Of a stretch of 64,000 bases of DNA, positions 24,491 through 58,653 are shown one piece after another (the stretch's first letter is position 1; each line of letters opens with the position of its first letter). Source of the stretch: Sinohyriopsis cumingii (taxonomy: Eukaryota > Mollusca > Bivalvia > Unionida > Unionidae); assembly GCA_028554795.2 (NCBI GenBank), contig JAPYKE020000263.1:1178001-1242000 (forward strand). Direction: 5' to 3'. Made by a program: the position numbers and the translations under genes. A model generated the notes under the pieces. That model was not told the DNA's origin. It ran no database searches and saw only the letters and a list, made by a program, of their open reading frames with translations.

Positions 24491-24769
24491 CAGTAGTACG
24501 ATATTGCCGTTTTTGCCTTATTTTCTATTCCATGCCTTTGCTCTCCTCTAATCCCTATAGTAGAATCTTAAGAACAAAACCGTCTTCGTGCTGAAGAAGA
24601 ATGAAAACAGCTTCTCGCCTCTGCTATACCTACTGAAGCGGCTGAATCTGTCCATAAAAAGACACTAAAATCACAACCGCCTGAACTATGATGTCAGAAA
24701 CGTAGTGGAGAGACGTAAAGTCAACATGGCCAATGTCCCACCCACCTAACACCAGACAAAGACGCTCGA

Positions 24770-29536: not shown

Positions 29537-32500
29537 AGAAAAAGAGTTCACTGTTGTACTTTATTGTGTGTAATGGCATCAGTCTCCTTGCAGTAAATGA
29601 ATGACAAGTATTTAATCTTATCACTGTTTCTACACATTCCTGTCCCAAATGGATGAAACCTTACCTTGCTTGCATTGCAGGAAAGAAGAAATGGGTGCTT
29701 TTAGGTGCATAATGGGTCACAACACTGTGAAAGACTTCAAGTCCATATGTCTGGTGGCAGGGGGATAATTTTTCAATATCTTTAAAAGATATGGACTTTC
29801 TACAATCTCCCTTAACTTCTTGTAAGCTCTTGACCCTGAAATATAAATGATCAATGTGTTGGCAAATACAGATTTTTTTAATTCTTCAAAATTACTTTTG
29901 TACAGAGTCAAATTTGGTAATAAATTTGCTTGAAAATAAAGGATTGACAGGATTAAGCATGTTTCCCTCCCTAAAGAATGTAACATGGTTGATCATGATA
30001 AATGTTCTTGATACCCATCTGAATATGGCAGGGAGGGGGAAGAGGGTTTAGAAAATGCAAATTGGCACATTATGTGATTAATCATTTATGAAAAGGATTT
30101 CTGTGGCTATGATCCTCTTGTCAAGTTGCAGGGAAAGACAAACGTATATAATAAAAACTGTATATTCATCATTGTATGCCAAGGAGAAGTTGTACTACAT
30201 GTGAATTACTGCACCTTTTTTAATCCACTGACGAGCATCTAGTGGACCATGCTCACACTTTAGAAACTCCAAACTATGCCCTACATGGATGTCTGAAACA
30301 TGGTTAAGGATGGACCACCATTTTGCACGTTTCAGCGGGCCATTAGAACCAGAAGATGAGGCAACCCAATAAATGTGATTCACAATGGATTTAATCCAGG
30401 GTCTAATATCTCTGAATGTTTTCCTCTTTGCTGCCATCTCCAGTTTCTTTGAAACACCTATTAAATAGAATATGATAGAATTCTTGAGACTGTTGCATCT
30501 TAACTAACTACAATCCTACTCATTATCAAAAATAAATAAGTGCAAAAGTTTTTAATTGCTGAAGAGGTTCTCTTTGCTGCTGCATGCATGTACTAGCAAG
30601 TCATACTGTTTTCAAAATTGCACAGATAGAGCAGATGAGACATTAAAAAGAATTTAAAAAATAAAAATCAGTGGAAACGATCCAGTGGGAAATTATTATG
30701 AATGCATTTTACACGGATCTACATACAGAAGCTACCAATTATTTATTCAACTTTACAAATAAATTATTTTGAAACCCATATGTAAATAGCTAATATTGAT
30801 CCTTTTAAGAAATAGAAAATTTGTTTTAGTGTTTGATGGTGATTACCTTTTGCAAGATGCCATACATCAAAATAATGACTTTTGTCCTTGTGCTCTTCCT
30901 TCATGAACATTTTAACCTGGACATGGCGATCAGTGACCAAGGTGTCCACAGTAAGCCCAAATTCCTCCAAGTTATGGAGACACCTCTTCAACCCTTCTAA
31001 TTCCATGTGGAATGAATTTTTTACTTCATTAGACTGAAGAAAACAAAACCTGACGGTAAATATGTACTGGTGTTGTTGCATATTAAATCTTAGTTTCAAG
31101 TCAGTGACTGTCAATTTCAAATGCTATTATTTCAGACATGCAAATGAGAAATAGAAATGTGCATAGCTTCTGAACTTTCAGTTTCTGCGATAAAGTCATA
31201 AGTATGAAAATTTATCTGATCAGTGATCCAAGATTCTGATATATCAAAATGGGACCTTTATTACTACATGTAGTTGGCAGTGGCTGTCTTGAACTTCATT
31301 TTACAAATTTATACAGAAAAGCATGCAAGTTTAGATCCTATCCATTTGCTCTGGTTGTAATGAAAATGACCAAATGTGCAATTTAAAGAACTGATGGTAC
31401 AACTTTATTACCTGCACAAGCTTCAAGTCCAGAGTAACATTGGTGTCCAGGTCAATGACAGTATAGCTGCAATATTTTGCAGAGTGACCTGGACTGTCAC
31501 ATCTTCCTTCCCCTCCTAGAATCAACATTGATCCCTGTGCTGCTGTGATGTTGTCTGCTTGGTGAAGATCCCACAGCCTGTAAACACTTGGGATCAAATA
31601 ATTTGTCTGTAGATTGTCATATGTTCTATGACAAAATATAGGACAGTTTAATGCATGGAACAAGATGATGATCTGAGCAGCACTGTTACCTGATACTAAA
31701 ACAGCATTTGAGAGTAACAAATTGCCCAATGGCATTTTTTGGCACATATTCTGACTGTGCCATGTGGAAGTGTGACCATGACTACGTATGGAATTTACAG
31801 TTATCATAGTTCCAAGGACACTTTTGACTTGTACAATACAGACACTTTTACAATGCTGACATATTTTTAGAAGTTCAAAAAGCTTGGATTCAGAGACAAG
31901 GAAATACCTTTCATCTACTGGTTTAATGCTGCCTAATGGATCAGGATCACTTTCCATGTCTTCTACATCACGTACTTCACTCTCAGGTACATAGTCAGAA
32001 TCCTGATCTGTGTTTGAAGGCATATCTGAATCTCTTTTTCCAGGTTCATCTAAATCCAAGCAACTCTCTGGATCTTCAACTTCATTTTTATCCTTCCTCA
32101 AAATATGCAGTGGGGGCAGTTTTACTAGGCTGCACTGTATTCCAACATCTGATACACGTGCCACTGCTTGTGTGCCTTTTGACTTTACATCAGGTCTAAC
32201 CTGCACGCGCCTATTTCTACTTTTTAATATCGATTTAAAATTTGTTTGACATTGTATATGAACGCCTTTTTGTTTTTCTGGTGGAGGAGACCAGATCTGA
32301 GTTGCATATTTGAAAGTTGAATCTACTTCCGAGATATGCTCATGACTATCTGTGGAATCGTGTTTTAAAATGTGTTCAGCTTCCCTACTTTTGTCTGTTA
32401 ACAATGTGTTCAAAACCTGAAAGTAGAAAAGTACAATGGTAAGAAGGTGCTCATATTTCATAACTTGGAATTTAATAAGCAATGTCATTTTAAAATAAGT

Positions 32501-33385
32501 ACTTAAACACTGTGTGCTGTGGAAAAAATAATGATTAAGTGATGGTGTCAAAAGTTAAAATTAAAAATTTACCACCATGCAATAAATTCATTTAAGAAGC
32601 ATGAGGTTCATTCATATTATATGTAAATGGCATTCATAACCACCACCCTCCAGCACACACACACACACATACACACATACACACACACACCACCTAGGGA
32701 TAATATCTTGAAAATGTACATCCAACACTGAAACAGTAAGAGATAATATTGCATTCTGGACGAATAGACTAAAACCGAGGAGGTGTAAAAGACGTTGAGA
32801 ACGGTTTTCATCGGTCGTAACTTGAGAATTCTTCAAACAAACAAAAATATATAAAAATATATATGCAAAGCAGAACTCAGAAAGTAATCAATATAAACAT
32901 TAAAAAGATTGCATCTTCTGATTCAGTTACAGTGTATTTTACATGTATGCTACAATACAGTTAGCGTATGGACCAATCTGATACTATATACATGTCTGGT
33001 ACTAGTGTAGATAAATGTCTGTGAATGGATTGTTGCATTTTGTGGTCACTTACCTCAATTTTCTGCCTTTTTTCGTAACCCACGCGTTTAACGCTTTTCC
33101 CAGGATTTAAAATATCCAAAGGTATGTCTGGAACAGCGCCAATTTTTAATCTTGGCCTAGCATTTGCGTATCCAAGAGAAGCCATTTTTTCAGGATCCCT
33201 CTCGTAACATTCCTTTGAGAAATGTAAGGTGCACAGAGTGCTGTATGGTGTTGCTTTAAAATCAACTCGCTTGCAATAATGCATCCATGGTTTTTTATTC
33301 CTTTATCTTTTGGAAAAGAAAAAAAATGAAGTCCACAGCCTTTTCTTAGTATGCTATTACACCCAAAAGCAACTCAAAACGGCAT
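29537..33385 (-). pseudogene. THAP-domain transposase-like gene (Kolobok-like), six exons
   Basis: Exons on the - strand, each with GT/AG signals: 33,385-33,054 (THAP zinc finger), 32,416-31,412, 31,033-30,847, 30,457-30,215, 29,835-29,665 and about 29,586-29,537. Phases agree at each junction (0, 0, 1, 1, 2). The first exon has the C2CH THAP pattern: GCNS, FPKDKG, CKRVDFKATPYSTLC and HFSKECYERD. The central exon has an acidic linker and GRCDSPGHSAKY; the third has LVTDRHVQVK and HYFDVWHLAKG; the fourth has RPWIKSIVNHIYW and HGPLDARQWIKKG. These acidic motifs fit a DDE-type transposase; THAP plus such a domain is characteristic of Kolobok-like transposons, but the subfamily is my inference. 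Breaks: codon 4, where the first zinc Cys is expected, is TGA (33,374-33,376); a 1-nt shift in a six-base homopolymer near 33,291; a 1-nt deletion in the fifth exon near 29,738. Confidence 0.75.
32655..32691. repeat. (CA)n-type microsatellite in THAP intron
   Basis: Interrupted acac/atac run in the first intron of the THAP gene; a weaker counterpart lies at about 29,478-29,505 beside the duplicated segment. Confidence 0.8.
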
Positions 33386-33451: not shown

Positions 33452-36400
33452 CTTTACGAAAATAACCGAATAGGCGTGGAAATTATGCATACGAGGTCAC
33501 GGAAACTCAGCGCCCTGAAAATACGCCAATATTTAAATACTGGCAGTATGGTCGCACATGATGCTTCAGAACAAGGTTTTACTCTACAGTGCATTTATTA
33601 TTATTGTATATTTCCACTGATTTCTAGTCTCCTTTAAACTTACCTACATCCTAACATACATACACGCATAAAACTGTCACATCATTCTTGTACACATTGA
33701 TACATTTTTCTCATAATACGTGGTGATAAGTGTAGTGCAAGACATAGAACCTTAATAGGTTTCTGATTGTTACGAATGAGTTCAGTTGAATTTTCTCCCT
33801 CTTTTTCATCCTATTCTTCACAAAACAGTATGTAAGTATTATAGCTAAACTCTGGCCAATATTTATATAACAGGCAGAACATGAGAGTAGAGGCTCTTAT
33901 TTATTTTTAATAAAAATCTTGTTTTCTGTTAAGAATAATCCTGATTAAACAAACACCTGAAGAGAACACTGCATACATGGTAAAAGAGAAAACAAAATAT
34001 ATAGTTACACTGCAAGCAATTTTAGCTTAAGTCATAGATGAGAGCCAGATGAGGAATTATAGATGACATTGAAAGAAGTGTTGTTATATTTAATTTACTT
34101 TCTTTTCTGTAACAATAGTCATATGTTTTGTTTATTTTCATTATCATCCATAAACGTAATGCTTGTATGTAAGTTTTCTGTTACATCTAGGAAATAGTAT
34201 ATGTAAAGTTAAATTTCTTATTTGATTTTTCGAAATTCTGTTTGTAATAATTTCCTATGTTTAGTACAATCAGACAGTATGTAAAGACTTTGTGAAATAT
34301 ATTGACACATTTGCAACACATAACATTCATTATTATAACAAACAAATTGAGAAGGATTAATAACCAGGAATACATAACATAATACTATTTTCATGGATAC
34401 ATGCATGCATATATACATAAACATAAATCCACATATAACTAGTCTATTTGAGCAAGTTTGATCTGATACAAAAAATGCAGTTAAATAAATACAGCCTTAC
34501 ACAAAATAATCTATTTATGATATAGGATATATCAAACACGATGATTTAATATAATTTCTCCATCGCAACACATAATATCATATTACTGTCTATATTGATA
34601 TTAATGAATATTATTGTTTTTTATTTTCATTTTCTATTCATTATATCTTTCCAAAAACAGCCCGTAAGTACTATGAATCTAATTCATTTAATTCAAACAG
34701 TATACTTTCATCAGCATGATATAAATTTGAATTTTATCTTGTACTCAATAATTTGTTTAAATTTATTGATAGAATAAGGTGTATCCAGTTATATGCAAAA
34801 GCTTTGTGTACATATAATAATCAATTTCATATTTCATTGTATCTCAATTTTGCAATTGTGTTTTAAATAATTTCCAGACATGAATGGCACTGAGCAGTAG
34901 ATGAAGACCATGTTGTGAATATATTGATTCATTTGTGTTTGTTTATCATACACAAGTTGAGCACGAGTAATTGCAAGTAATACCAAAAATACATGTGATG
35001 GATATAAGGGATCATCGCATACACATTAACATCCATTCATCGTTACAAATATACATGGGAAGAAAGATACTTGAACGTCCTAATCTATCTGAACAGTAGA
35101 TAGAAATATGATGAAAGAGGTATAACCATACATAACTGTTGAGAGTTAAGAATGCATGTATAGTTATTACTATGGAGGCTACACCAAACCAAGATGATAT
35201 AATTTCTCCCTGCAACACATCATGTCATTAGGTTTCTATTCATCTGATATTAATCACTGTTATCTTATGATTGATTTTTTTGTCGTCTTTTTCACGATAT
35301 CCTTCGCAAACCAGCGCGTAAGTATATCTCCCAGCAATGGATAATGCTTGTTTGAGACAGTTGCCTGAGAGATAGAAATTAAGAGTTGGGAATCAGTTTT
35401 TTATATAATTTCCAATACCAATCTTTTCTGTGTTAAAATGTCCCTCAGAAACAATTATTGAAGCATTCAGAAACTGTGAAAGAAGAAACAACATATACAA
35501 CTGATCAGAAATGATGGAAGCTAAAGTGATGCATTAGACTCTGATGATAATTACATTATAGATGTCCTTGATATCAATAATATGTTCCCTTTAGTTTATT
35601 TTCCTTTCGCTAACATGAGCATGCGAGACTGTTAGGCAGTAGTTTCCAACGGGTCGATGGTTCTTTTTCAGTCTCCCTTGGTTCTTCCACCACCAAATGT
35701 ATAGGCATCCGTGTATATCATATCATATACTTCAATCTGTCGCAATAATCCCAAAATATCAAGGTTTTCCTTTCTATAGCAATATACATCTCTTTAGTTT
35801 GTGTTTTCATACAAGAATATAATTTCGAGGTGTTTTACTGAATGTTATGCCAAATGCAATTATATTCATTAACAATATCCGAATCAGTCAGTGGAATCTT
35901 AAAAGTATCAAATAATTTCTCATTCTATCTTGTTTAATATTGCTTTGAAATTGTTTCTACACCTTGATGTATCTAGCGGAATATTAAGGGTTTGTTCATG
36001 TATAGTGGTTCTTCGGAAGTTTGTTTTGGATTATTTTCCGAATTTTGTTTGAAATAATTTACAAACGTTAGCGCTATGCAACAGTATATGAAGACATGAA
36101 AATATATCAATAGCTTTCTACAACATAACGCATTTGTATCCTGAGTATTGTGAGAACTATAAATCTTGTTGGATACATGCATGTACGCATCAATATACAT
36201 GGACAAGCACAATTACACATGCATGCAGATGTTGGACAATGTTAGTCTGTAAGAAGAAGTTTCCTAGATTACCTAACGTACATGTAGTAAAGGAGATATA
36301 GGTACATGTAGCTTTTGATATTAAGAAGGGATTTAGTTATTATATTATATAGATTCCACCTGACAAGTAAAACTTATAATATGTCTCCATTACAATATAA

Positions 36401-39400
36401 ATGATTTTCCTCATGTTTGCACTAATTAGTGATAACATTGTATTGATCGTTTTCTTATTTTGTGTCATATCCTTCAAAAACAGATTGTAAGTATTTTATA
36501 TAGCAACATTGTGTAATACTCACATAAGAAGTCATTAAATAGATCAAAAGAGACGAAAATCTATTTTTTATCCTCTAGTAACCATGTTTGCTATGTAAAC
36601 TAAAACGCGGGAGAAAAACAACCGAAGAAACAGTTTCCGAAACTATGAAAAAACACATCATATTTAACTGTATTGTTGACAATATAAGCCAAATGACATA
36701 TCATAATCAGATGACAAAACATATATTGACATCTTTGATAGCAATATTTCTATGTTAACGTTACTTTACTCTCTGTAACAGTATCAATATATGTAGGTGT
36801 TTTCCACTATCATCCAGCAACCTAATGTTGTTATCTTTCTCTGTCATTTATTCAAAGTTGGAAGTTTGTCATGTGAAAATAAATCAATCAGTAAAATCTA
36901 GTGAGCTTTGGATACAAGTTCGGTTTGAATTTATTTCCAAAATTATTCGTATCTATCAGAATTTGAATCCTTTGTACACGTGTTGAAATGCATATTTTCA
37001 GTTCCTTATTTCGTTTGTTTAATAATATTTTTATATTAAAAATTTGTGTTGTACGCTGCTAATGAAGACTTTGTGCTGATATATGGATACATCTGCGAAA
37101 CATACCATATATTTTCATTATAAACAAGTTGAAAACAAGTTATAAGCAGGAACAAATACCAAAGTAGATATATTGCTGGATACGTGCATTGATGCATACA
37201 CATAAATAATCATACATCATTATCTAAATACACGGAAACATATTGTATCATCATATTCTATTTAAACAAGTTATAACATATACAAGCAAATGTAATGCAA
37301 GACACATAGCCACAGAGCTTGTTGATTGTGAAGATGGAATTGAGTTGTGTCGTTAGTGAGAAGATGCCTGACAAATAAATTTGATATAATTTCTCTATTA
37401 TAAGACACATTACATTCTTTCTATTTATACTAATAATGAACGGTCGTATCATGTTACTGATTTGTTGTTCTTTATCATTATACCCTTCACAAAACAGGTA
37501 GTAAGTATTACATCTCAACATTTTATTGTACTTGCTCAAAATGCATTCACAAGACAGAAGAAACTTGGACATAATTTTATTTTTCCTCTTCGAATAACTT
37601 TTCTTTTTGTGTGTATGATCACAGCTGGGAAAGGTCTTAGAGACCAAGCAGCGTATCTAACCGTACTGCAGATTATGTAATCTAATCTTAGACATGAGTT
37701 ATGTTACAAATACATTATACATGCCTTTTTATATAAATATTGTTATTTTGAGCATATTTTCATGTCTGTGACAAGATGAATATTTTATTTTTTGTCATCC
37801 AGCATCTGAACGTTAGGATACTTTACTGATTTATATAAATTGGCAATTATATTATACCCTGTAAATATGATCCAAATCGATCAGCTGTGACTTATTTGAT
37901 GATTTGAGATTTACCTTGTTCAAACTGTGTTTAAATTTATTTTCAAAATAAGTTCTATCCAACTCGATGTTAGTGTGCACACGTGATTCAGTGTTTAATT
38001 CAATTTCTTGTTTCATTTGTGAATTTTGTTTGGAATGATGTGCAAAAATACAGTACTGTCCATGAGTATATGAAGACTGTATGAAAATATAGCGATTTCA
38101 TTCATTTGTGAAATATAAGATGCTTTTATCATAAAACAAAGTGAGAACAACAAATATCTAGGAATATATATCGATTACATATTCATGGATACATGCACTC
38201 ACGCATAAACATAAACATGTAAATACATTAAAACATACACAAACATAACAATATTGGGATATCCCAGTCGATTAGAAAGTTCGTTATAATACATTGACAC
38301 ACATATTGAAAGAGATAAATCAATATATTAGCTTATTGGTTGCTCACAGGGATTTGTTATATTGTTGCAGAGGATACATCAAATATCTGAAGTTGATATA
38401 ATTACTCTATTCCAGCGCATTATATCGTTTCTGTTTATAATGATATTAATCTGCAGTATCATTGATTTGGTATTTTCTTTTACATCCTATCATTCACAAA
38501 ACAGCGAGTAAGTATTATATCTGGACATTTTCTGATGCTTTCTCTGAACATCAATCCAAGAGACAGAAACGATAAGAAAATCAGATATTTTCTTTTTGTA
38601 ATGAACTTGTTTTGTGTGTAACGTATTCCCAAAGAGAAACCTCTGAAGAAAAACTGCAGAAACTGTGAAAGAAGAAAACAACAGATCTAACTATCCGTTA
38701 GATAACTTCAGCCAAACCATGAATGAGAGTCAGAGTACAGATAAATAATAGACACCATTCGAGGGCCAAATTGTAATATTTAATTTATTTTGTTTTGTAC
38801 AACAATTCATTACATGTTGTTTGTTTGTTGTAGTTTTTTTCGTGTTTGGTTATCATCAAGCAACGTAATATCTGCATGTTCCATTGAATTGTGTCGGCTT
38901 ACAATTACATTGCGTAAACATGGTCCGAACAAATCCGTAGACCTGTTGGGCATTGGATAATTTCATATTTTATCATGTTGTAAGTTTTTATCTTTTTGAA
39001 TATATTTACAAAATTAGTTGACTCTAGGGGAATGTGAAGGCTTTGTGTGCATATAACGATTCACCGAATAGTTCAGGTTTTTGGTTTTCTTAATATTATT
39101 TGAAATAACGTGAAATTTAAGTGTGATTCAGCTGTATATGAAGACTTTATGCAAAGTGTCGATTCATTTGTGAAACAAAACATGCATTTTCATTTTTCTG
39201 ATATTGTGTTTCTGTTCTTCATTATATTAAAAACAGGCAGTAAGTATTATACCTTGATATTTTCTAATACCTTAAGCATCCAACCAAGGCACACAATACA
39301 AAAGAATCAACTTTGATTTGTCTTTTTCAATGACACTGTTTCATGTCCAAAATAATACCCGATAAACAACTGAGGAAGAACACTGCATAACCTATGAAAG

Positions 39401-39895
39401 AGTGAACGACTGAGCTGACTGTACTGTAGACGGTGTAAGCTATGTCATTGGCACTGAGTCAGATGACAGCACTAATAATGTATTTGATATGATTAGCGTT
39501 ATGTGTAGTTTATTTTATTTTCTGTAACAAAATTAATCTCGGTATATTTCATGCAATACTATATCACTTTGCTTCATTCAAATTATGCACTGAAGTTTCA
39601 TCAGTATCAGATAATTTGTATTTTATCTTTCTGTGCAAAGTTTTGTTAGAATGTAATTCGAAAATAAATTGTGATCACCAGACTATGATTGCTTTAATGC
39701 TTGTTTAATGATCCATTGAATAATTCAATTTCTTATTTCCTTTTGAACTATCTTATAATTTTTTAATTGAGTGCCTTTTAGTTGTATATGAAGACTTTGT
39801 GCAAATATATAGACTGAGTTCAGAACACAACATTCAATTTCATTATGAACATGATTAGAAGGACTAATAACCAGGAATGCATACCAAAATACACT

Positions 39896-39896
<1 letters not shown>

Positions 39897-39927
<31 letters not shown>

Positions 39928-39954
39928 CATACATACATACATACATACATACAT
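39897..39954. repeat. (CATA)n microsatellite in array unit
   Basis: About 14 tetranucleotide units, grown from the cataaacata-type segment that every array unit has at this position. Confidence 0.95.
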
Positions 39955-42900
39955 AACGATATCGAACATCTAAGTCTATGGAGACCGGTTGTAATGCATT
40001 CAGAAATTGAGTGAAATTTTTTAACTATACATTGCTTGATGGCTGTTAGCAAGGAATCAAATTAATGTATTATACCAGATAAACCTAACAAGATTGATAT
40101 AATTTCTCAGTTACAAAACATGTTCTTGTTTAAATTGATAAGAATATCATCGTATAATTGATTTGTATTGTCCTCTGTTTGATTGTATCGCTTACAAAAC
40201 AGGTGGTAAGTATCATATCTCAACATTTTCTATGATTTGCTCTAAACTGTGATCAAACAGATGGAACAAAAGAGTGACTCTATGATTTGTGTTATTATAA
40301 TTACCTTGCATTTATGTGTTAAGTAATGAGCCAAAACGTTATAAACAAAATAATTAAATTATAATATGACAATGCAAGCTAAATCAATTGAAAGGGCTTC
40401 ATGACAGGTCATATATAACTTTGATAGCAATATTGTTTTTTAAAAATATATTTTCTTGTCTGTAGCAGCAGTAATATGTTTATTTATGTGTAATTTTCTC
40501 ACTATCATCCAGCGATTTAATTGAGGAGACTTTCACTGAATTTTATATTGCTTTGAAATTAAATCCAGCAAAACGTATCCGAATCAATAAGAACAATCTC
40601 TTCAACTTTGGATAACTTTTGTCTTGTTGTTCAAAATTTATTTTTATTTGATGCATTAGTTGAATTTACGAGACTGTTAATGCTTTCTACACATATAATG
40701 ATTCAGTGATGAATTAAATTGTTTCTTTAATTTGCTAATTTTTATTCAGATAATTTCCAAACCTTTGTTGCCATTCAGGAGTATATACGGCCTTTATGGA
40801 AAAATATAGATTTATATGTGAAATATTATGTGGATTTTCACGGTAAAATTGTAGTGTTGAATAATGAAGAAAAATACTAAATTAGATATCTTCGTGGATA
40901 CATGCATGCACGCATACGCACAAATAGGCATACATCGAAAACATGCATAAATACAAACAGATATAAAATAATTATAGTTTATGGGGACTCGATTGTTACA
41001 ATATGAACAACAAATATATTGACCGATATATAACTATTCATAGCTTATTGGTTATTTCGAAACATTTTAGTTATTTTATTTTAAAGTGTACAACTTGACA
41101 GGTAAAGATTATTGTATTATTCAATAAAGCAAATTATATCATAATGTTCCTATTTAAATTGATAGTAAGGCAACTTTATCATGTTATTAATCTCATATAT
41201 TTGTATATTTCATTAAATCCTTCAAACATAGCATGTAAGTATTATTTAAATATATTCTGATTCCTGCTTTAGCAGTCATCAAAGTGAATAAGGAGTAGAA
41301 AATCTAATTGATTTATTATTTTGCATACCGCAATTATCTGTAAAATAAAACCGGGCAAAAATTTTAAGAAACAATTGCCGAAACTGTGAAAGAAGAAACA
41401 TCTTAAACTAACTCATAGGTGAATGCTGGATGACAAATAAATTATAGACACGATCGATAGCAATAATTTGTTTAAATTATTTTCTCCTCCATAACAATGT
41501 TAATATGTTTTGTTTGTTTTTATAATCTGGCAATGAAATCTTGATATTTTTTTCTTATTTTCTCTATCAATTTGTAACTATATTAAGTAAATATGATACA
41601 ACTCAAGTAGTAGAATGCGTTCATTCGTATTATTATAGAGAATGCACCTAAAACACAGATATTTTTTTCATTACAATACAGATCTTTTTCTTTTTGTTGA
41701 TATTGATAACATATATTATTGATTTGTATTTTCTTCTGTTTCATTATCCCCCCCCCAAAAAAAAACAAAAAAAAACCACAGGCTGTAAGTATTATATCGC
41801 AATATTGTCTAGTGCTTGCCTTTTACATCCCTTTGCAATTAAAGCTAACAAGCATGATCTGAATGAATCACTTTGACCTCATGCACATTGGATAATACGA
41901 GATTTTACCTTTTTTATTCAAATTTTCTTTCAACTTTATTTTAAGATAAGGTGCATTAAACATATGTTATAAAGCTTTGTTTTAATTTTGTGATATTCGT
42001 TAGACGTAATTTCCAGAATAAAGTGCCATCTAGCAGTGTATTAAGTCTTTATGCAATTGTTAAACATGTGTATTTACATCAAGAACAAGATGAGATCGAC
42101 TAAGGACCATGGATATTTATTAAAATGCATACCTTCATTGATGACTACATGCACTCATATGCAATCATATATCCGCACATGAATATATGCATATCATTAT
42201 CGAAATATCATAGTCATTGCGATCAGATTTGTTGTAATACATTCAGCCGAATAATGTGAGTGACACGTCGCCAGATAAAGCTTATTGACTGTTAACCAAT
42301 ACATGTTTTTATTATAGTATAAACATGACAAGTACAGTTGACATAATTTCTCCATTACGACACCTTGTATCAACATTTTCCTTGTTTTACTGATAGTAAT
42401 CAGTAATATCGTATTGTTAATTTCATCTTTCTTATTTTTCATTATATTCTTCCAAACACAGTCTGTAAGTACTATGTCTTGACATTTTCTGTTGCATGCT
42501 CTAAACAGTCACCATAGTTACAGAACAATACATTAGAAAATCTAATTGTTTTCTTTCAATAATCTTGTTTTGTGTGTAAAATTATCCCGAGAAAATCGAA
42601 GAAAATTGCAGAAACATTGACAGAAGACACAAATCTAACCATAGTGTAGACGATATCATCTAGATCGTAGATAAACCGGAAGGCAAACAAAGCTAATAGC
42701 AATATTTTTATGTTTATTTTTCTGCAACAGTAATAATATGGTTTATTTTTCGTTACCCATGAATGTATTGTTAGTATTGTTCAGTGAATTTTGTACAAAC
42801 TTGTGACTAATGCTAGGAATAATGATTTAAATGAATCAGTGGAATTTCATTAGGGTTGATAGCTTGGTTTTTCTCCCTCGTTCGTTAACTTTATTTGAAT

Positions 42901-45175
42901 TTATTTCCAAAAATAATTATATCCAGCAGAATGTTAAGGCTTCGTGCACATATAATGATTCATTGTTAAATTAAATTTTATTGTAATATTTTGAGTTCCG
43001 ATTGAAATAATTTCCGAAACGTAATCCTATCCAGCAATACTTGCAGAATTTGTGCAACTGTATGAATTAGTTTATGAAATATAAGGTGTATGGTCACTAT
43101 AAACAAGTTGAAAATGGAATTCATACCAAAAATATCCATCTTCATTGATACATGCATGCGTGCATAAAAGTAAGCATAAACATTCTTCCAGACTGGATGA
43201 TATGAGGCTGTGGGAACATGTTTATGATATACAGACGTATATAGAGAAGGATATGTATCCAGATATAGCCTGTTGATTGTTAATAAGGATGTTAGTTGTA
43301 GTTATACGGGAGGCACCAAAGAAATACAGCTGATATAAGTTTGTCCTCCGCAACATATCATGTTTTTATTTATGCTCATATTAATCAGATCAGATATATC
43401 ATGTTTTTGGCTTTTATTTTTTCCTCTTTTTCATTATGATCTTCAAACAATACAACAGGTCGTAAGTATTACGTCTGGACATCTTGTAGTACTGCCTTTA
43501 AACAGTGATCTAAAAGACTGACGGAAATATTATAAAATCAGTTTTTTCAAACTTGCATATAGATTTTTTTGTGTGAAATCAACTCCAGAAAAGCATGTAT
43601 GGAAAAATATTCAAATCTGTGAAGAAAAAAAATTTAGATTTTACGATACTTTAGATCATGCATGCTATATCATAGAACACAGCCAGGTCACAAACAGATT
43701 ATAGAGTAATGGAGTATTTTAGATATAGCCATACATAGCATGGTGGTTCTTAAAAGAAGGAATTTAAGTAAAGTTGTTATAATTTCTCCATTAAAATAAA
43801 TTATATCATTTTGCTATTAATAGTGATATTTATTAGCATCATTATTTTCACTTCTTCTTTTTCATTATTTCCTTAAAAAAGCGAGTAAGTATATCTCAAC
43901 CTTTTCTTATATTTTTGATGACGGGTCATCAGTGATATAGAACAAAACAGTTGAAATGTTCTTTGATAAAACGAAACAGTATTTCGAACTATACTGTAAA
44001 TGATGTTAGCTAAAACAAAAACAAGAGTCAGATGACAAACAAATTATAATTTTCTTTAACGGCAATATTGTTAAATTTTGCTATATTTTATTTTCTGTAA
44101 CATCAATGACATGTGAAAGAAACACAAATCTGACAATACTTTAGACTTTGTAAGCCTCATTATAGAAAAGTCTGACAGCAAATTTTAGATGTGTCTGATA
44201 TCAATATGTTTAATCTATTTTTTTCCTTTCCTGAACACTTTTACCATCCTTTTTCTTAAACTCGTATTAATCAAATCTGTTAAAGAACTGTATTTTTTTT
44301 TCCTCTTTCATTATGTTCTATAAAAAAAAAAACAGTTGACAAATATATATCTGGACATTTGGTAATAATTTAAATAATGATCTAAGAGACAGAAGAAAAA
44401 AACATATATTAGAAAATCCGATTTTTATGTATGTAGAAATGCACTTTTCCTTGCTTAGCTACACGCGGGAAATTATCGAACAACCTAGTGTATGAGAACA
44501 AGTCTTCTAGAATACACATAAACAAACAAATGAAGTAAATTACCATACAAAGCTTGGTGATTCTTCAAAGAATGAATTAACTTAGACTATTAGTGAGGAT
44601 GCACAAACAAGTAAATTTGATATGATTTATCCATTAAAGTAAATTATATCATATTGCTATTAATTGTGATATTTATTAGCATCATTATTGTTACTTCTTC
44701 TTTTTCATAATTTCCTTAAAAAGCAGCAATTAAATATGAAATTTCAATTTGTATTATATTTTTATGACGGGTCATCAGGGATACCGAACAAAAGAGTTGA
44801 AATGTTCTTTGAAGAAAAAATACTGCAAATCATGTTCGCTAAAACATAAACAAGAGTCAGAAGACAAATAAATTATAATTGTCTTTAAAAGCAATATTGT
44901 TCTATTCCGCTATATTTTATTTTCTGTAACAATAATGACATTTTTTATTTTTGCATGATCATTCATCAAAATGATGTTGGAATCTTACACTGACTTTGAT
45001 ATTAATTTGTTATTATAATCAGTAAACATGACCTGACCCGAGCAGTGGAGTCCGCATGAATGAAGACGTCATATTATATGTGTACTTTTTTCGTTCACTT
45101 CATACAGACGACTATTGTGAAAGTCATATCGACATACATAGATTATTGATTGTTAATAAGGAATACAGTTATACT

Positions 45176-45178
<3 letters not shown>

Positions 45179-45241
<63 letters not shown>
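45179..45241. repeat. (TA)n microsatellite in array unit
   Basis: About 31 TA units lying 60 bp upstream of the TGG microexon site at 45,300. It gives a spurious Tyr/Ile reading frame. Confidence 0.95.
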
Positions 45242-45243
<2 letters not shown>

Positions 45244-46221
45244 CTTAGTCTTTTGTTCTTATGTACTTTTATTTTTTCATTATACCCTTCACTTAACAGT
45301 GGGTAAGTATTTTATAGCAACATTTTCGAAGGTATCCCTTAAAGAGCCATTTAAGAGACAGAACCTACGAGTAAATGATCAAACTTTTTTCATCAAATAA
45401 TGTTGGTCAGTCTCCGATAAAATAAAAATAAAAAACGAATGCCGAAAATTTGAACGAAAACACAAATCTGACTATACCTTAGACTTTGTAAGCCTTATCA
45501 TATAAACGTCTGACTACAAATTTTAGATGTGTCTGATATCAATATGTTTAATCTGTTTGTTTTCAAAAGAAGATTATAACTATTATATCTCAACATTTTC
45601 TTTTGCATGATTTAAATAGTCATCTTACTTCTAGAACATGAAATTAAAAAGTATAATTGTTTTCTTCCAATGACCCTATTTTGTGTGTAAATAATCCTTT
45701 AGAATAAAAAAACGAGGAAAAATTTCAAAAATTTTGAAAGAAGAAACATGTCTAACCGTAGTGATGATGATATAATCTAGATCATAGATAAACAAATTAT
45801 AGACTTCTTTGGTAGCAATATTTTTATATTTAGTTTATTTTTTTAGAAAAAATATTAATATGGTCATTTTATTTATTGCTACACAGCTATGCAGTATTAG
45901 TACCAGTCAGTGAATTTTGTATACGTTTGTGACTGTATCCAGGAAACATGATTTAAATGAATCGGTGGAATTTCATTAGCATTATATACCTTGGTTTCGC
46001 TATCTAATTCTTGAAATTTATTGAATCTGTTTCCAAAATAAGTTATATCGAACAGAATCTTAAGGCCTTGTGTACATATAACGATTCAATTTATGTTTTT
46101 AATTAAATTCTATTTTAATTGTTCGAGTTTGAAAAAATTTCCAAAATTGTATCCTACTTGGCAGTACTTGTCGAATCTGTGCAATTATATGATTTCATTT
46201 ATAATATGAACCGTAGATGTT

Positions 46222-46225
<4 letters not shown>

Positions 46226-46304
<79 letters not shown>
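46226..46304. repeat. (TA)n microsatellite in array unit
   Basis: About 39 TA units in a unit whose splice site (46,516) has decayed. Confidence 0.95.
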
Positions 46305-46306
<2 letters not shown>

Positions 46307-48726
46307 GAAATAGATATAGCCAGCTATAGTTAGCTGATTGGTAAGAAGGAATTTAGTTGCATTGTTAATCAGAACACAGCCAGGAAAACAAAATGTTGAT
46401 ATAATTTGTACTCTTCAAAACATACCATGTTGTTACTTATACTCATATTAATCAAATCAGTTATAGAAATGTAATTTTGTACGTTGTTCTTGTTTAATTA
46501 TGTTCTTAAAAATGGTTGGTAAATATATATCTGGACATTTTGTCATACTGCCTTTAAATAATCATCTAAGAGACAGATTTTTTTTTAATAGAAAATCCGA
46601 TTTTGATGTACATAGAAATGCACTTTTATTTGGTTACCTACACGCGGGAATGTATTGGAACATCCTAGTTTATAAGAATGAGTGTTTAAGAATACACACA
46701 AACAAACAATTGAAGTAAATTACATATAGCCATACATAGCTTGGTGATTCTTCAAAGAAGGAATTTACTTATAGTATTAGTGCGGACACACAACAAGTAA
46801 AGTTGATATAATTTATCCATTAAAGCAAAATATATCTTTTTGCTGTTACTAGTCATATTTATTTCGCTTTTGGTATTTGCATTCATCTGTTTTCATTATT
46901 TCATTCAAGAAACAGTGAAAAATGCAACTGTAGATATAACTATACTGTAAACGATTTTAGCTAGAGCGTAAACAAGAGTCAGATGACACAAATTGTAAAT
47001 ATCTTTGATATCAATATTGTTATATTTGCTTTGCTTTATTTTCTGTAATAATTATCACATTTTCAGCTTATTTTATTCATGATCATCCAGCAATATTTTA
47101 TATCGGTATCGTTCACTGACCGAAACCAATTTCTGACTATATTCAGTAAACATAATCCCAATGAGTCAGTGTAATCAACATGTATAAAACCCCACTAAAA
47201 AGCCATTTAAGAGACAGAACGTAAGAGTAAAGACTCGTACATTTTTCATCAAATATTGTTGGTTTGTTCGTAAAATTATCCCTGATAAAAAATAAATATT
47301 ACCGAAGTTGTCAAACAAGGAACAAGAAATCTGATTATACTTTATGTATGTCGTTGTCATTGATACAAATATTGTTATATTCAGGTTGTTTTTCGTTTCG
47401 TAAGAACATGAATGTATATAGTATATTTTTCGTCAAGCAACGTAATGCAAGTATTTATTTATACTGAATTGTATTATTTATATCCAGTAAAAATGTTCCA
47501 ATTCAATATACCCTCATCATTATATGATTATTTGATTAGTTATCATTTTATTAAAATTATATTTGCATTTATTAGCAAGATGTATTGTTATCTAATGGAA
47601 TGTTAAGAAATTGTGCACATATATTAATTCATTTTATAATTCAACTTTTGTTTGTAACAATTTCCAATATGTAGCGCTATCATTGGTATATGAACACTTT
47701 GTCACTCCTCATTATACTGATAATAATATTTATGTTGTGCTTCTCTTTCATAATATCCATCACAGATTAGCATGTAAGTATTATATCTCAACACTCTTTA
47801 GTATTTAAGCATAAAGCAAACAGAAAACAAAGAGTGGAAAAGCTATATATGTCCTTCAAATAACTTTGTTTTGTGTATGAAATAATCTATGAGAAAAACT
47901 GAAGAATTGGTTGCAGAAACTGAAAGAGGAAACAACCAGGTTGCAGACAACAAAAACTATTAATAATGATCAACTGCCTTTGATAGCAAATATTGTTAGG
48001 TTTAGTTTAGTTATTGTTTTCTTTTTGTAAAGTATTATGTGTTTAGTTTATCTATCATTCCAATACAACAATATAATCGATGTATATTTCACTGCAATTT
48101 ATGTATCTTGTGAACGTCATCCAAGTCATCAGTGAAATCAGATTAGCTTCGGAGAAATTCACTTTTGATCTAGTCCAAATTTTGTTTGAATGTATTTCAC
48201 AAAAAAGATGTAACCACCACAATGTGAGGACTTTGTTCAATTATAACGACTATTTGTATAATTCCATTTCTTTCTATCATTTAAGAAGTTTTTGGGAAAT
48301 AAGTTGCAAAACTGTTTGCTATCGGGCAGTAATATGAAGATATTTTGAAACTGTATCGGTCCATTTTGTAAAATATAAGCTGCAATTTCATCATAAACTG
48401 GTTAAGAACGACTATAAAGAATGCATCCATACAAACAAAACAATTTAATGGTTAAATGCATATTCACATGCACATGAACACGCATACATTATTGGAACAT
48501 CCTATTTCTATTGGAATACGCTTGTTATAATATATACAGACAAATGTAGTAAAAAATATTCAGGCAATACTTTGCTTATTGATCGCTAAGAAGGAACGTA
48601 CTATTACTATTATAGATGACACACTAAACAATTGCGGTCTGTGATGTGATTTTGATTTTTAACGTAGCTTTAACAATTTTTCAGTCATATCGCTACGATG
48701 TCTGCAATGTGGCAGTTTATAGTGAT

Positions 48727-48950
48727 GTCTAGCAATGGGGCATCATGCCGCAGACATGTAACATGATGTCCCACCCAGTCACATTATCCTGACACCATGC
48801 CGAGCAGTCCTAACACTAAGCTCTTAATGCTGAGCGCCAAGCGAGGCAACTGTTAGTACCATTTTTGTAAGTCTTTGGTATGACTCGGCCGGGGATCGAA
48901 CCCACGACCTCCCGCATCCCAGCGGTGAACAATTACGTCATCATGATCCT
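48727..48950 (-). repeat. tRNA-derived SINE (family A) inserted in last array unit
   Basis: Reverse-strand copy of the 24,262 element and better preserved. On the - strand it has the B box gtgggttcgatcccc, then ggccgagtcata, ttgcctcgcttgg, cattaagagcttagtgttagg, ggtgtcaggataatgtgac and gtctgcggcatgatgcc. The last array unit resumes on both sides, so the SINE arrived after the array formed. Sequence 49,100-49,740 has no other feature. Confidence 0.85.
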
Positions 48951-49744
48951 CTTTATATTGATATTAATCTGTAGTCTCATTATTTTTTCTGTTTCTTATT
49001 TTTCACTATATTTCTGACAAATCAAAGATTAAGTACTGTATCACGACATGTTCTAATACTTGTTCTAAACAGAAATTAAAGGGGGAGAAAACAAACAAGT
49101 AGAAAATAACACAATAGATTAGCTCTGAAAAATTTAAAGAATGTTTCATATTATTTTAAAAGTGCACGTTATATATGAAAAATTTGACTTTCTATTTTAA
49201 GGATCGTGCCTTCTTTTTGCCTTTGATATAATGCTTTTGTTATGGATACCTAAATTTGCTTGGCAGTATATTACCAGGTTGGTTCTGATTCCTGTTAAAT
49301 CCTTCACATTCTCTGCATTTTGTTGTTTGCTAGTTTTATGACCTGTCAAACTGACCAATGTGTCCAGGTCAATACCACATTAATCTGTATATATTGTCTG
49401 CATCATACTTGCTGTTTTCAGTGGTTTCTGGAGACTATCTAAAACCTTTGGAGTATACAAATTATTTGCATGGAAAACCCAGTATTTTCATCGAAATACA
49501 TTTGTGGAAGCAAATCCTCATAGTTATTATTATCGACATAGACCTTTAGATTTCTTTAAAAACTTAGTTTCAACTTTTTTATTGTGATTAATATTATAAA
49601 TTGTACGATCCGATGACTGGTTTAGGCTTCGTCGACGACTAGTCAATTCTTACTTGTACCAACAACCACATTAATTGGTGCTATGATCATTAGGGTAGAT
49701 GTATACAAGTACATGTTGCGTGCAGATATTGTGCATTTATGTTG

Positions 49745-51110: not shown

Positions 51111-51777
51111 CAGGTCTTTACATTCAAGTTAGCAGTAATCAGAAAATCCACATCGAGTAGTGCATAATACATTAGATAAAAGTATCCCTTGTGAAAACAT
51201 TATCTCAATTTAAGAAAGGATCATGCATATAAGTGAAAAACAATTTTATAAAATTATATCACTTGTTGAGACTTTTTTGAAATGCATATAATAAAAAATG
51301 ACTGAATGTATGAAGAACCACATAAACACATGTTAGGTTTAAATAAGGTGTCTTGTTCTACTATATTTGACATACAAACAAATAAGAATGTAGATATTTA
51401 GAACGTACAGTATGCTTAAATGCAGCACTTAATGAGTAATATTATGAAAATAATCACACAGGAATGAAATATCATACATATAAGAAACATTTAATAGGTA
51501 TATTTTATTTAATAGTCCATATTTTCTTATCCAGTGCACATGCATTACTATGGTGAAAAAAGCACACGCTGAAGTTTCCTTTGTGAAAATCAATCAATCA
51601 TTCAATCAACTGATATTTAGTTCTTCCTTTCTTTATTTTTCGTACTCTTGAATAAATATTTTCCATGCAAAAAATATGATAAAACGATTCGGATGACATA
51701 ATCCATATATAAGTCGATTCAGATTATACGATAAAACTAAGATTTTATGGTAATAAGGTATCGGCATTACGGAATTA

Positions 51778-52115
51778 CAATGATGTCCAAAAGACTAATT
51801 TACAAACTGGGCCAGTAAGTATTACAATGATGTCTAAAATGCTAAGGTACAGAATGGCCAGTAAGTATTTGGTTGAAAACCAAAATGCAGAGGTGTACAT
51901 TGGACAAGGAAGCATTATGATTATATCCAGAAGGCTAGTGTACAAATTTGACCAGTGAGTAGTAGAATGATGTCCAAATGTCTAAAGTACATGATAGGTC
52001 AATATGAATAAGGAAAATGTTCAAATGACTAAGGAACAGGTTGGGCCAGTACATATTCAAATGCTGACCAAAAAGGCTGTGGTAGAAATTGGGACAGTAA
52101 GTATTAGAATGATGT
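51778..52115. repeat. ~48-bp minisatellite with repeated gtaagtatt
   Basis: Six to seven diverged units of about 48 bp: gatgtccaaaagactaa, tacaaattggg, then ccagtaagtattagaat. One unit is interrupted near 51,870-51,920. Since 48 is a multiple of three, one frame yields a 16-residue protein repeat over the last units (VQMTKEQVGPVHIQ then MLTKKAVVEIGTVSIR), but it is not sustained across the array. Confidence 0.75.
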
Positions 52116-54694: not shown

Positions 54695-54819
54695 GAAGTG
54701 AAAGTGACCAAGTGGAGCTAGCAGTTTTTAGAAAGATGCACATCTGGAGTAAGGCCAAGCCGTATACTCTACAACCCACATTACATTCATCAATCATACA
54801 TCAAAATAAAGAGAATTAA
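54695..54819 (+). CDS. candidate terminal exon, phase 1
   Basis: Acceptor actgtgaatttcag, then in phase 1 an open frame of 40 codons (SESDQVELAVFRKMHIWSKA at the start) to a TAA at 54,817. Phase 0 hits a stop after eight codons, so phase 1 is needed, matching the phase-1 ends of the upstream candidate exons (21,728). It is the first plausible + strand exon beyond the microexon array. Unrecognised; no clear poly(A) signal follows closely. From 54,820 to 56,840 nothing else is supported. Confidence 0.35.
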
Positions 54820-56843
54820 AGGTTCTTTGAAAAATACTATGCAAAATATGAAACTGTTGAGCGCCACAATAGGAGACAGGACTACCTTATTGCGAATTAC
54901 CCGGATGTTCGGGACAAATAACTCGGTATATGCAAAAGGAATGATGCAAATTTTCTTGAACTTTTATTTCTGTTCTCTTTTTATGCTTTTAAAGCATAAA
55001 ATCATTAGATTATAATAATAACTGACATTCATGGAATCTATTGTATAGGTGGATAATATTGGCAGCTTGCGCACGTTTTCAACAAGTTTTCTTACTTTCA
55101 TCAAGTGATGTTATTGACATTAAAATGATATAAATGAAAATACTGAAACAATAAAAATAAGAGTAAAGCATACTGTCTTAGTTTTTAGTACATGTTAAAG
55201 AAAATAAATTGGATTCACAATAATTTTGACATCTTGTCATTATACACTTGATAACACATTTATATAGTTAATTGGAATAAGAAGTAGTTGCAATGCCGGA
55301 TTAAACTCTGTGGAGACCATTAAGCCCTTAGGCAGTCAAAATCTTGGTGTCCCCCTCGCAAATAATCTCCTGAAGTGTGATAAAGGAGAAACCTGCCAGT
55401 TATTAAATATTCATATATTCAGATATGCAAATGTCCCGCTAGAAACGATGGTTTTGATTGGTTGTACTATACATTCTCTTGGAAACAATCCCATAAACCG
55501 ACAATTCTACTTCCTGCTTCCTCTTGAATAAAAATTCGTGCGGACACCTTTCAGATTTGAGCAATAACGATTATTAATTGCTGCAAATTAGTTACCATTT
55601 TTTCATTTATATATATTCAAAAATTATCAGACATATAGGTAATTATAACTGCTGACGCTTTGATTTATTTGAGAGTTTATCTTAGTGTGCAAATTTAACA
55701 AACTAATTTGTATAGACCATAGTCACGTTACCAATTGCCAGACCAATTTGAATTTTTGTTTCAGTCTTTTATCAATTTGACTTTATTTTCTCTTTTTCTG
55801 AATGTTAAAAAATTTATTTTATATTGTACTTACATTGCTAAGTTTTTAGTTCATTTATATGTCTTAGCGTTTAAGTTTATAACTTCGTAGGTAAGAAGTT
55901 GAGCTTGCTTATTCGCATACTACTTTAGTCTGACTATTCAACCCCCTACCGATTTCAATAACGAAAACGTTTAATGTGATAAAAAGTGCACAGAACTAAG
56001 TCAACTGAATCATTGATTTATAATTTCTAACCTGACTGTGACCAGAATGGCACTAATGCTGGCATTCCCTGCACCCTTTCGTGCTTAACGGACTTTCCAT
56101 ACTAACTCGGAGCCATATTTTTCTTCACTATAGGCAAGTTTATTTCCATCAGACAACATAATGACGTAGTTCATCCTGTTCAGCAAAAATTACGTTGATT
56201 GTTTGGAATTATATCCCTTTGCGCACATTGAGATAGAAATTAAACCGCTTGTTAAATCCACGTGAAATGTAAATTTGTTGTCATTATTTTTCTTTGGTTC
56301 ATTCGACATTGTAAATATCGGAAAGCATACAACTTATGTATGTACCTATGTAGCCGTGACACACCCATTTGATGAAAATGGACTTGTCCACGAACTGGAA
56401 ATGGATGCGAGCATGTCCATCTATTACGTTGAAAACTTCCTTTAAGCATGAAACGCACAGATGGTCACGGTGTTAGTGTCACTCTACTGACACTCAGGTT
56501 AGGAAATATAAATCAATGAATGAATTGACTAAGTTCCTTGCACTTTTTATCACATTAAAAGTTTCCATTTTTTTAAATCGGTAGAGGGGTACAAACAAAC
56601 GGGTTAGTATCGTCAGACTATAGTTAAGGTATTATTAGAACTGCTAGCGTAAAGAATATACTAGAAAGTATATTCATTTGATAAGTGTTGACACGTTTGT
56701 ACCCCAAGATAGTAGTTTGTTTTCTGAAGTGTTTATGATTATCTTCCATTTCTATTACACTTGATATAGGGTGAAAAGGTCATATAATTTCATGTTTATG
56801 TCATTTCATATTCATTATATATTTTACATAGCTGCTGCATATT

Positions 56844-57066
56844 TGCCAGAATGTCCAGGATCATTTTCATTGCAGGTGATTCAGATATGAAGCAGCTCGG
56901 TGGTCTTCTAAATCTTCCCAACTTATTCCTGTTGTGCATTGCTGGTGCAAAATTGGTTGGAGATATCATCAATCTTAAATCCAATGGGTTAGATGTTGTC
57001 CTCCGAGCCTACAACCCTGACCTGCTGATTCTTCACATAGGTTCCGTGATGTTGGAAAAGATGTGA
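56844..57066 (+). CDS. small ORF, possibly a mobile-element SGNH-like fragment
   Basis: After a catatttgccag acceptor-like site an ATG opens 71 codons: MSRIIFIAGDSDMKQLGG, then LPNLFLLCIAGAKLVGDI and PDLLILHIGSVMLEKM. A GDS motif after a hydrophobic strand, and a PDLLILHIG strand, resemble the first and later blocks of SGNH-type hydrolase domains found in some invertebrate mobile elements. The usual Asn-Asp after HIG is absent (SV instead), so it would be inactive. The call is tentative. Sequence 57,067-57,438 is unassigned. Confidence 0.3.
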
Positions 57067-57438
57067 ACATATTTACAAGGTATTTTTGCTTACCAATTTT
57101 ACTTTTTTTTAAAAAAAAATTGTTATTATTTGTGCCCGATAGTTGCAGCAGAACTATTAAACATTTGTATTGTATATTTAATTTATTATATTGATCTTAC
57201 AGAGTAGAACTGGCTAGTGATGAATTCTAAATATCATCTCTAAATAGAATAAGACCAGCATAATTTTCAAGAATATTTTTGCATGTTAAGCATCGATATT
57301 GACTAGTCATCCTACAGTCTAAGACATTGACCCTAGTATTTATGTTTTGGTGTCACCTATCGGCATAATGAAAAGATAGATTTCAGAAATATCTCACACT
57401 TTTTGCAGCCCATCTCGACGCTTTCCTACAAATTAAAA

Positions 57439-58155
57439 TCATAATGTAACTACGAGCTGATTTAATATTTCAATATATTTGATGATTTCACTACGTGGTG
57501 ATGACAAATCAAAAATCTGTTCTTGGAAATTGTGCCGTAGTAGCTGTATATGTATTGTATGTTCTCGATTAATTTCTTTAAAATATTCAATAATTTGATT
57601 TAGTTTAATAAATATAACTTTTCTCAATTCTTTTTCGGGAGATAGCTCAATAAACACCCATTGAATATCGTCTTTATTTCTAAAGATAAATTCATTGCCT
57701 AACTTTTCATTTATTATTTCAAGTAATAGTTGTTTGCATGATGGATTAACATCGTGGTATGATCGTTTGTCTGTGAAATAATCAGACCTTTTCGGTTCTG
57801 GTGGTATCGGTGGTGTCGGTGGCTGAATTTCAGGCCATCCTAACACTGTTCTGATCGAACTGTGATATATATCCACGGCGTAATTGGGAGAATTTATCTC
57901 GATGACCGAAGACAGCGTTGGTTCATGAGCTGTTAGTGCTATCTTGGATTCTTTTCCTGTGATATTTTTTATTCGACTTTGTAATTGCTCATTGATTTCT
58001 TCGATTTAATAACTACCGGTTGGTATTCCAACAACGTTCCAGTCGGGTGTACCATCTTGTTTATTTTTATTTGAAAACACAAACGAATTATTTGCTGGTA
58101 ATCCACCAAAATGATTTTGATCTGATATTTGGCCAACTATGATATACTCGTAATT
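57439..58155 (-). pseudogene. Polinton capsid-associated protein (IPTGSY type), one stop
   Basis: One - strand frame is open over about 235 codons except for a single TAA at 58,007-58,009, directly after VGIPTGSY. The N-terminal part has FGGLPANNSFVFSNKNK; the centre has SVIEINSPNYAVDIYHSS then VLGWPEIQPPTPPIPPEP, a proline-rich linker; the C-terminal part is a helical domain rich in Glu and Lys. An IPTG-Y-x-IEEIN motif followed by a beta-rich segment is a recurrent feature of invertebrate Polinton structural genes in my memory of the family; its exact role is not known to me. It is one of the best preserved genes of the block and last in the transcriptional order. Confidence 0.5.
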
Positions 58156-58182
58156 GTGCTAGCGCGATCTCAGGATTCAGGA

Positions 58183-58610
58183 TTAATCTAGCTCACAGCT
58201 ATCATCGTAGTCTTTGGAGCAGTTGTATTTGTCACGAACTGTTGAAGTAGCTCTCCTGACGTTGTCAGTGATGTCATTATTTAATATATTTGTACCGTTA
58301 ATACCAGTGTAGTTGTATATTTTAATCATCTCTGAAAAGTCGAAATCAGATATAATTCCATCACTGAGACTTGCTGATAACAACGAAGATAACTTCGAGT
58401 TTGTTGTTTTCGCTGTATGTAATTTTATCGGATAACTTTTCATTCGTGCAAGTACATAATTTTTTGCAATAATATTGAAAACACCAGCAATTGTTGTTAT
58501 AATTGAAATACAGATTGTCACAGCTACTGATGCAATCATTGTCATTGCAGATAATAACACACCGGTTTCAGGAACAACAGGGGGTGCTGAATAAACAATT
58601 ACGTCAACGA
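58183..58610 (-). pseudogene. Polinton membrane-associated protein
   Basis: A frame of about 140 codons, with an Ala/Pro stretch (YSAPPVVPETGVLLSAM), a hydrophobic transmembrane-like segment (about MIASVAVTICISIITTIAG), a basic HTAKTTNSKL region and an acidic SLSDGIISDFDFSEMIKIY segment. The arrangement (hydrophobic segment, then a small-residue/LS-rich helix and an 'IS-D-F' acidic motif) recurs in Polinton-associated proteins. No start ATG is in frame near the upstream border, so the 5' end is uncertain. Its neighbours are structural genes on the same strand. Confidence 0.4.
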
Positions 58611-58653
58611 TAACTAGTCATCGTCGATATTTTTTAATTTTTATCGTGTATTT

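Follow-up and report, generated by a model that had tools for sequence, protein, structure and literature searches.

A 64-kb stretch of the Sinohyriopsis cumingii genome, the whole of which is called the window here, carries on its + strand a tandem array of short sites in which three bases separate what look like a splice acceptor and a splice donor. The window belongs to contig C263 (2.63 Mb) in an assembly of 2.9 Gb, and two near-identical copies of the array were found on the same contig, at about 0.23 and 2.12 Mb; the copy that includes locus L056 is referred to as B and the other as C. In all sites a pyrimidine-rich stretch precedes an A-rich segment that closes with AG, and three bases then separate this AG from the heptamer GTAAGTA. 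Scanning the 64 kb for AG-NNN-GTAAGTA gave 15 matches, all on the + strand from 33,827 to 47,769, and none elsewhere in the window or on the - strand, while GTAAGTA alone occurred 22 times on the + and twice on the - strand. An earlier note on this DNA had reported 15 + strand sites with 3-nt spacing in all, which the scan confirmed in 15/15. It had also counted about 21 units of a diverged tandem repeat, and our profile of the downstream block of the unit likewise counted 21, of which 15 hold an intact site and six do not; the unit profiles were built from blocks excluding the motif and trained on the 15 motif-bearing units. The site was readable in five of the six non-intact units, with the motif altered in all five. 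Adjacent sites, intact or decayed, lie 275-1,257 bases apart, in agreement with the unit lengths of 1.2 kb to a few hundred bases given in the earlier note. The features, all on the + strand, are listed below; putative microexon sites come from the motif scan (and from copy comparison where a copy is named) and decayed sites from the unit profiles.

33,634-49,106: tandem array of ~21 diverged units, apparently truncated, with an intron-like stretch and one site per intact unit (repeat and profile analysis; 5' limit from sister copy L056)
33,827-33,838: putative microexon site 1, TAT
34,659-34,670: putative microexon site 2, CCC (copy B: TCC)
35,313-35,324: putative microexon site 3, CGC
36,482-36,493: putative microexon site 4, ATT
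37,496-37,507: putative microexon site 5, GTA
38,503-38,514: putative microexon site 6, CGA
39,235-39,246: putative microexon site 7, GCA
40,201-40,212: putative microexon site 8, GTG
41,230-41,241: putative microexon site 9, CAT
41,780-41,791: putative microexon site 10, GCT
42,460-42,471: putative microexon site 11, TCT (copy C: ACT)
43,457-43,468: putative microexon site 12, GTC (copy C: GTT)
43,880-43,891: putative microexon site 13, CGA
44,331-44,342: decayed site, AG retained, donor ACAAATA
44,725-44,740: decayed site, donor TTAAATA
45,298-45,309: putative microexon site 14, TGG (copies B and C: GGG)
45,573-45,584: decayed site, donor ATAACTA
46,511-46,526: decayed site, acceptor AG gone, donor GTAAATA
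47,769-47,780: putative microexon site 15, CAT
49,022-49,037: decayed site, AG gone, donor TTAAGTA

In the 15 window sites AG and GTAAGTA stand at 2.00 bits because the sites were picked by these letters, while the three middle columns hold 0.22, 0.01 and 0.11 bits. The triplets are richer in G+C (24/45) than the local background of 29% (binomial 5.5e-4). Upstream of the array the comparison was made with copy B, whose homology to the window ends at window 33,634 while the sister array continues for ~9 kb further upstream with seven more intact-form sites; the window array therefore looks truncated. A 47-bp tandem repeat of 7.3 copies, with three GTAAGTA inside, was noticed at window 51,774-52,115; no connection with the array units was noticed, none having been looked for.

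A genome-wide family of sites and their variable triplets

The array belongs to a family spread over several contigs, with relatives 65-76% alike clustered over about 1 Mb of C12. When the core of the site was searched with any spacer from 0 to 20 nt allowed, 172 genome matches were obtained (reversed control 0), and the spacer was exactly 3 in 100/100 of those listed. The strict core TTCACAAAACAG-NNN-GTAAGTA gave 459 exact genome matches, divided by first triplet base into T 85, A 188, G 111 and C 75, with reversed controls of 0 in each split; since this core fits only 3/15 window sites, 459 is an undercount. Places were listed for 360 of the 459 (all T and C, A up to the start of C16, G up to C263:2.12 Mb), and they fall into clusters at C6:71.03-71.11, C6:150.84-150.94, C10:82.0-83.6, C10:111.6-111.7, C10:118.4, C10:118.97-119.08, C12:58.2-59.3, C16:79.6-79.7 and C101:2.16 Mb and in several stretches of C263. 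Among the listed matches the strand is uniform inside each cluster, with the lone exception of C263 521,062. Units measure about 0.7-2.9 kb and clusters reach about 1 Mb. A core profile run on sampled loci found 118 sites with AG 0-9 nt before GTAAGT, in 117 of which AG stands exactly 3 nt before, and 39 additional matches without an AG/GTAAGT pair; these 117/118 are not independent tests, as about 30 loci were chosen by motif search and some are near-identical sister copies, and the profile, being trained on motif-bearing sites, is biased toward the motif.

Two stretches of C10 deserve separate mention. At C10:119,031,293-119,083,037 we noticed 19 consecutive strict stations (as we call the sites in their array order) all reading ATG with a period of ~2,875 bases, apparently a recent amplification. 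At C10:82.02-83.61 Mb a small cluster of stations is present in five copies, all on the same strand and spaced by ~320-480 kb, as tandem duplication of a large gene or block might leave them; the two copies that were compared showed 94-95% identity.

The three bases change much faster than their surroundings, which was observed directly, as were the sites, their spacing and their spread through the genome. In a young array (25 units from C10 and C263, mean diversity 0.06) the triplet columns ranked 1, 4 and 5 of 1,764 for diversity; as these units were picked by a fixed motif around the triplet, the constancy of the neighbouring bases there is no evidence. Unit pairs with differing triplets numbered 0/11 at flank divergence below 0.2%, 3/12 at 0.2-1%, 8/26 at 1-2%, 52/55 at 2-4% and 57/60 at 4-6%, from which the triplet appears to change roughly 10-20 times faster than the flanks. 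Likewise, between the window array and its two sister copies (14/15 window sites, the first site omitted) the triplet differed at 4/42 positions against 249/13,540 elsewhere (Fisher 0.0076), and the 30 bases preceding AG differed at 13/413.

An untranscribed satellite without function would produce tandem arrays, here with periods reaching about 3.68 kb, and would let units decay as some in the window have done. Against this, each unit of the window has a site that is either perfect or decayed, the 3-nt spacing is kept in those 117/118 sites over arrays 65-76% alike, and the hypervariable triplet lies next to constant signals, so we regard a mere satellite as very improbable.

We further asked what the triplets would spell. 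There was no stop triplet among all 85 strict matches starting with T, and hence none in all 459. Array-triplet combinations and codon tables were compiled by hand from listings and sampled loci; in 12 arrays 96 combinations were collected, comprising 49 distinct triplets and all 20 amino acids, with no stop and no NAG. A further stretch of the sister array, L056, added five new combinations, one of them TAA in an intact-form site, bringing the total to 101. One stop was thus observed where 4.7 would be expected from uniform triplets (P 0.047) and 8.2 from local composition (P 0.0019), and NAG was found in none of the 101 (P 0.0015 if uniform). A triplet NAG would place a second AG at the donor, and its absence suggests that the first AG is really the acceptor. 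Written in array order, with strict-core stations only, so that stations deviating from the core are absent from the strings, 89 stations on C6 hold only S, T, P, A, N, V and I; 52 on C12 mostly A and S, with Y, K and D; 41 on C10 M, H, G, C, I and F; and 32 on C263 G, H, C and R (A-starting stations of C263 not listed). Shared descent of the units accounts for part of these restricted residue sets.

These properties bear on two explanations in which the three bases would not be coding. The sites could be recursive splice stations or decoys, the three bases being irrelevant and either not retained in the mRNA or not translated from it; the juxtaposition of AG and GT is like that of known ratchet points, which PMC13149111 ties to very long introns in Drosophila. 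A neutral spacer would be expected to change at the rate of the flanks, not roughly 10-20 times faster, and it should not avoid NAG and stops, which makes this explanation unlikely in our view. Alternatively, the array could consist of a mobile element joined head to tail with 3 bp between its abutted ends, like the spacer in the circle junctions of insertion sequences, and the splice-like appearance would then be coincidental. In the alignments listed between the C10 and window arrays (40 rows), similarity is confined to roughly -195 to +55 of the site, as if unit ends were conserved, and if each junction acquired a new 3-bp spacer, triplets could differ in two or three bases while their flanks had hardly diverged. 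On the other hand, a 1.5-kb unit probe had 58 matches, of which 57 fall inside strict-site loci and the 58th (C263:136,568) was left unchecked, and none is plainly dispersed (best 40 of 126 candidates scored); the unit ends, judged by eye, are not mutual inverted repeats, so that the terminal inverted repeats of such an element were not seen; the triplets are G+C-richer than their surroundings, with no NAG and nearly no stops; and a pyrimidine tract, AG and a perfect donor in the correct order would have to be a product of chance. We therefore consider the mobile element quite improbable.

Proposed stepwise splicing of putative one-codon exons

Taken together, we think that the intact units probably carry real spliced exons of one codon each. 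The earlier note had pictured the unit as two intron halves around such an exon, a picture that gains from the 3-nt spacing kept in diverged arrays, the fast triplet, the few stops and the lack of NAG; the splicing itself, the reading of the triplet as a codon and the use of stations in series rather than singly we infer from sequence. In each intact unit a pyrimidine-rich acceptor would end at the AG, the next three bases would form the exon, and GTAAGTA would serve as a near-perfect donor. Since a gap of 3 nt leaves hardly any room for binding acceptor and donor together, a stepwise route, as at recursive splice sites, is likely. In the first step the upstream exon would be spliced onto AG|NNN; the junction would recreate a donor, NNN|GTAAGTA, and this donor would then be joined to the following AG|NNN or to a distant exon. 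As every step would add 3 nt, the frame would be kept for any number of stations. The array would encode a string of residues, one for each station used, be it all of them or a part, and skipping would vary the string.

More tentatively, there may be genes in which part of the protein is encoded by exons of a single codon each, with very long transcripts spliced station by station, low-complexity or variable segments in array order and a large in-frame repertoire arising through skipping and codon turnover; we hold this wider proposal possible rather than probable. The segments would then be such as the 89-station C6 run of Ser, Thr, Pro, Ala, Asn, Val and Ile, the 52-station C12 run of mostly Ala and Ser, or the Gly/His/Cys-rich runs of C10 and C263.

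If the exons are real, they could also be used in a mutually exclusive manner, one of the options named in the earlier note; as in Dscam, each mRNA would then take up one station and one residue. The tandem alternative exons with variable content fit such a use, and the limitation of each array to related residues would suit a single protein position. Docking-type complementarity to the 15 units was not above control, the flank maxima being 271 and 300 against control maxima of 357 and 296, in what is a weak test, as the real upstream flank of the array lies outside the window. Nor was a consensus RNA structure found in 17 sequences, whose alignment was partly mis-registered, and exclusive use would gain nothing from long runs of one codon. 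Serial use would need no extra device whereas exclusive use would need one, and within the real-exon reading we prefer serial use and give exclusive use a minor chance.

Several observations weigh against spliced one-codon exons. The invariance of AG and donor is largely built in by the choice of sites, and the comparison of the three sister copies is the sole one free of it. The earlier note had called for AG/GTAAGT conservation to be checked by alignment against the unit-wide rate; in the three copies AG and donor showed 0/126 changes against 1.8% elsewhere, which is not significant alone (Fisher 0.18). Between two of the C10:82 array copies, about 5-6% apart, 3/3 triplets are identical. Position 121 of L056 (C263:2.107 Mb) reads TAA and is the sole intact-form station with a stop triplet, and a column shuffle gives zero stops in the 96 combinations at a probability of 0.07. 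Codon pairs a single step apart differ at positions 1/2/3 in the proportion 37/20/37, so that the third is not favoured over the first; the least variable position is the second base across arrays, but the third in the young array; and 19 ATG stations in a row are unlike selected diversity.

The search for a host gene adds to these points, as no host exon was found beside the arrays, either in flank comparisons across arrays or among the candidates in the window. A 5' element common to the C16 and C6:150.9 arrays was rejected as an interspersed repeat (40 matches from the best 40 of 882 candidates). Both flanking exons proposed in the earlier note lost ground. The upstream candidate at 21,614-21,730 (21,728 in that note) has itself as its sole genome match and lies beyond the apparent break of the array at 33,634. 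The downstream one, at 54,695, is common to all three copies and yet has an in-frame TAA in each:

54,695-54,816, + strand: sole remaining downstream exon candidate, unproven, open in phase 1, in-frame TAA in 3/3 copies (three-copy comparison)

Since this candidate is open only in phase 1, the triplets would be split over two codons. Pfam gave no match for either piece of the 54.7-kb candidate exon and the PDB none for its second piece. The evidence on a one-codon reading of the triplet is divided: the rarity of stops favours it, the position patterns are mixed and the downstream candidate is in phase 1.

The components of the proposed arrangement are already known. Microexons are exons no longer than 30 nt that end up in mRNA. 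Single 3-nt microexons, as in mouse Ncam and Drosophila troponin T (cited in PMC8042270), likewise place a one-codon exon between ordinary splice sites and add one residue. In our sites, too, acceptor and donor consensus occur at a fixed short exon length; the known cases stand alone, whereas here there are hundreds in tandem arrays with a hypervariable codon. Schistosome micro-exon genes (MEGs) have exons of 6-36 nt and are of ordinary size. As described in PMC4350168, their coding region is made of very small symmetrical exons, so that any skipping keeps the frame. Our putative exons are also symmetrical (3 nt) and numerous, and a gene model with constant exons was not found in the flank searches; MEG exons exceed one codon, while here each triplet would lie in a repeat of 0.7-2.9 kb within clusters of up to about 1 Mb. 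Dscam exons measure over 100 nt. The mutually exclusive clusters of the Dscam type, whose selector mechanism is treated in PMC6071210, resemble our arrays in their tandemly duplicated exons of variable content; docking-type pairing did not rise above control here in the weak test described above, the true upstream flank being outside the window. A ratchet point is a zero-length exon and leaves nothing in the mRNA. At ratchet points and RS-exons, according to PMC6224609 and PMC13149111, an acceptor beside a strong donor allows long introns to be removed stepwise. Our sites have both the pyrimidine tract with AG and the strong donor, 3 nt apart and not adjacent, with three fast-changing bases between them, so that the likeness to recursive splice sites would be one of working and not of membership.

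What would be new is the arrangement of such exons in hundreds with a hypervariable codon; no report of tandem arrays of 3-nt exons was found in searches of an open-access library, which is not proof of absence. If the sites are spliced, a genome would use one-codon exons in bulk, by the hundred; their length alone would keep the frame, and few positions of the repeat change faster than the codon. Proteins could then be varied or written residue by residue in a manner that would be new, and protein diversity would gain a source in addition to Dscam clusters and micro-exon genes. Such arrays would test whether and how the spliceosome handles serial sites 3 nt apart. They would also suggest that aligners and gene finders unable to place 3-nt exons have hidden such genes.

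Other genes and mobile elements around the arrays

At window 14,228-18,100 on the + strand lies a broken member of a CARD-like family with a conserved exon of ~125 residues without Pfam match. As a host for the array this gene (14.2-18 kb, upstream of the array and on the same strand) was not accepted and is suggestive only. Searches for the family gave 33 genome matches to its CARD exon and 43 to its second exon, the window member included. The C16 array has one relative some 100 kb upstream of it, and a relative on C16 matches PF00619 at 1.8e-5; among the matches listed there is none at the arrays of C6, C10 or C12. The family occurs in two of roughly nine array neighbourhoods. The ends of the CARD-like exons in the window are in phase 1 where readable by eye. 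A protein search with the CARD-like exon gave 106 candidates, none at E <= 0.001, and Rfam and tRNA searches gave no match. The molluscan haemocyanin model PF14830 had 0 matches as well, a result without weight for the taxon, since 14 control genomes likewise gave none.

When the open reading frames of the flanks were compared between arrays by tblastn, the matches listed (~90) all came from queries upstream of the C16 array, and those listed in the nucleotide comparison of the flanks were unit sequence, repeats and a virus-like element. In the window this virus-like mobile element occupies about 56,800-63,000 on the - strand, and in one of its frames Pfam recognises a DJR-like capsid domain at 2e-17; we take it to be of the Polinton type. 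Related sequence was also noticed near the C16 and C6:71.01 arrays. On the - strand at window 30,195-33,373, reading frames that presumably belong to a transposase of THAP-domain/P-element type end close to the apparent 5' break of the array at 33,634. Finally, window 48,720-48,919 and 24,296-24,495 are inverted copies, 78% alike, of a short repeat that we assume to resemble a tRNA-derived bivalve family.

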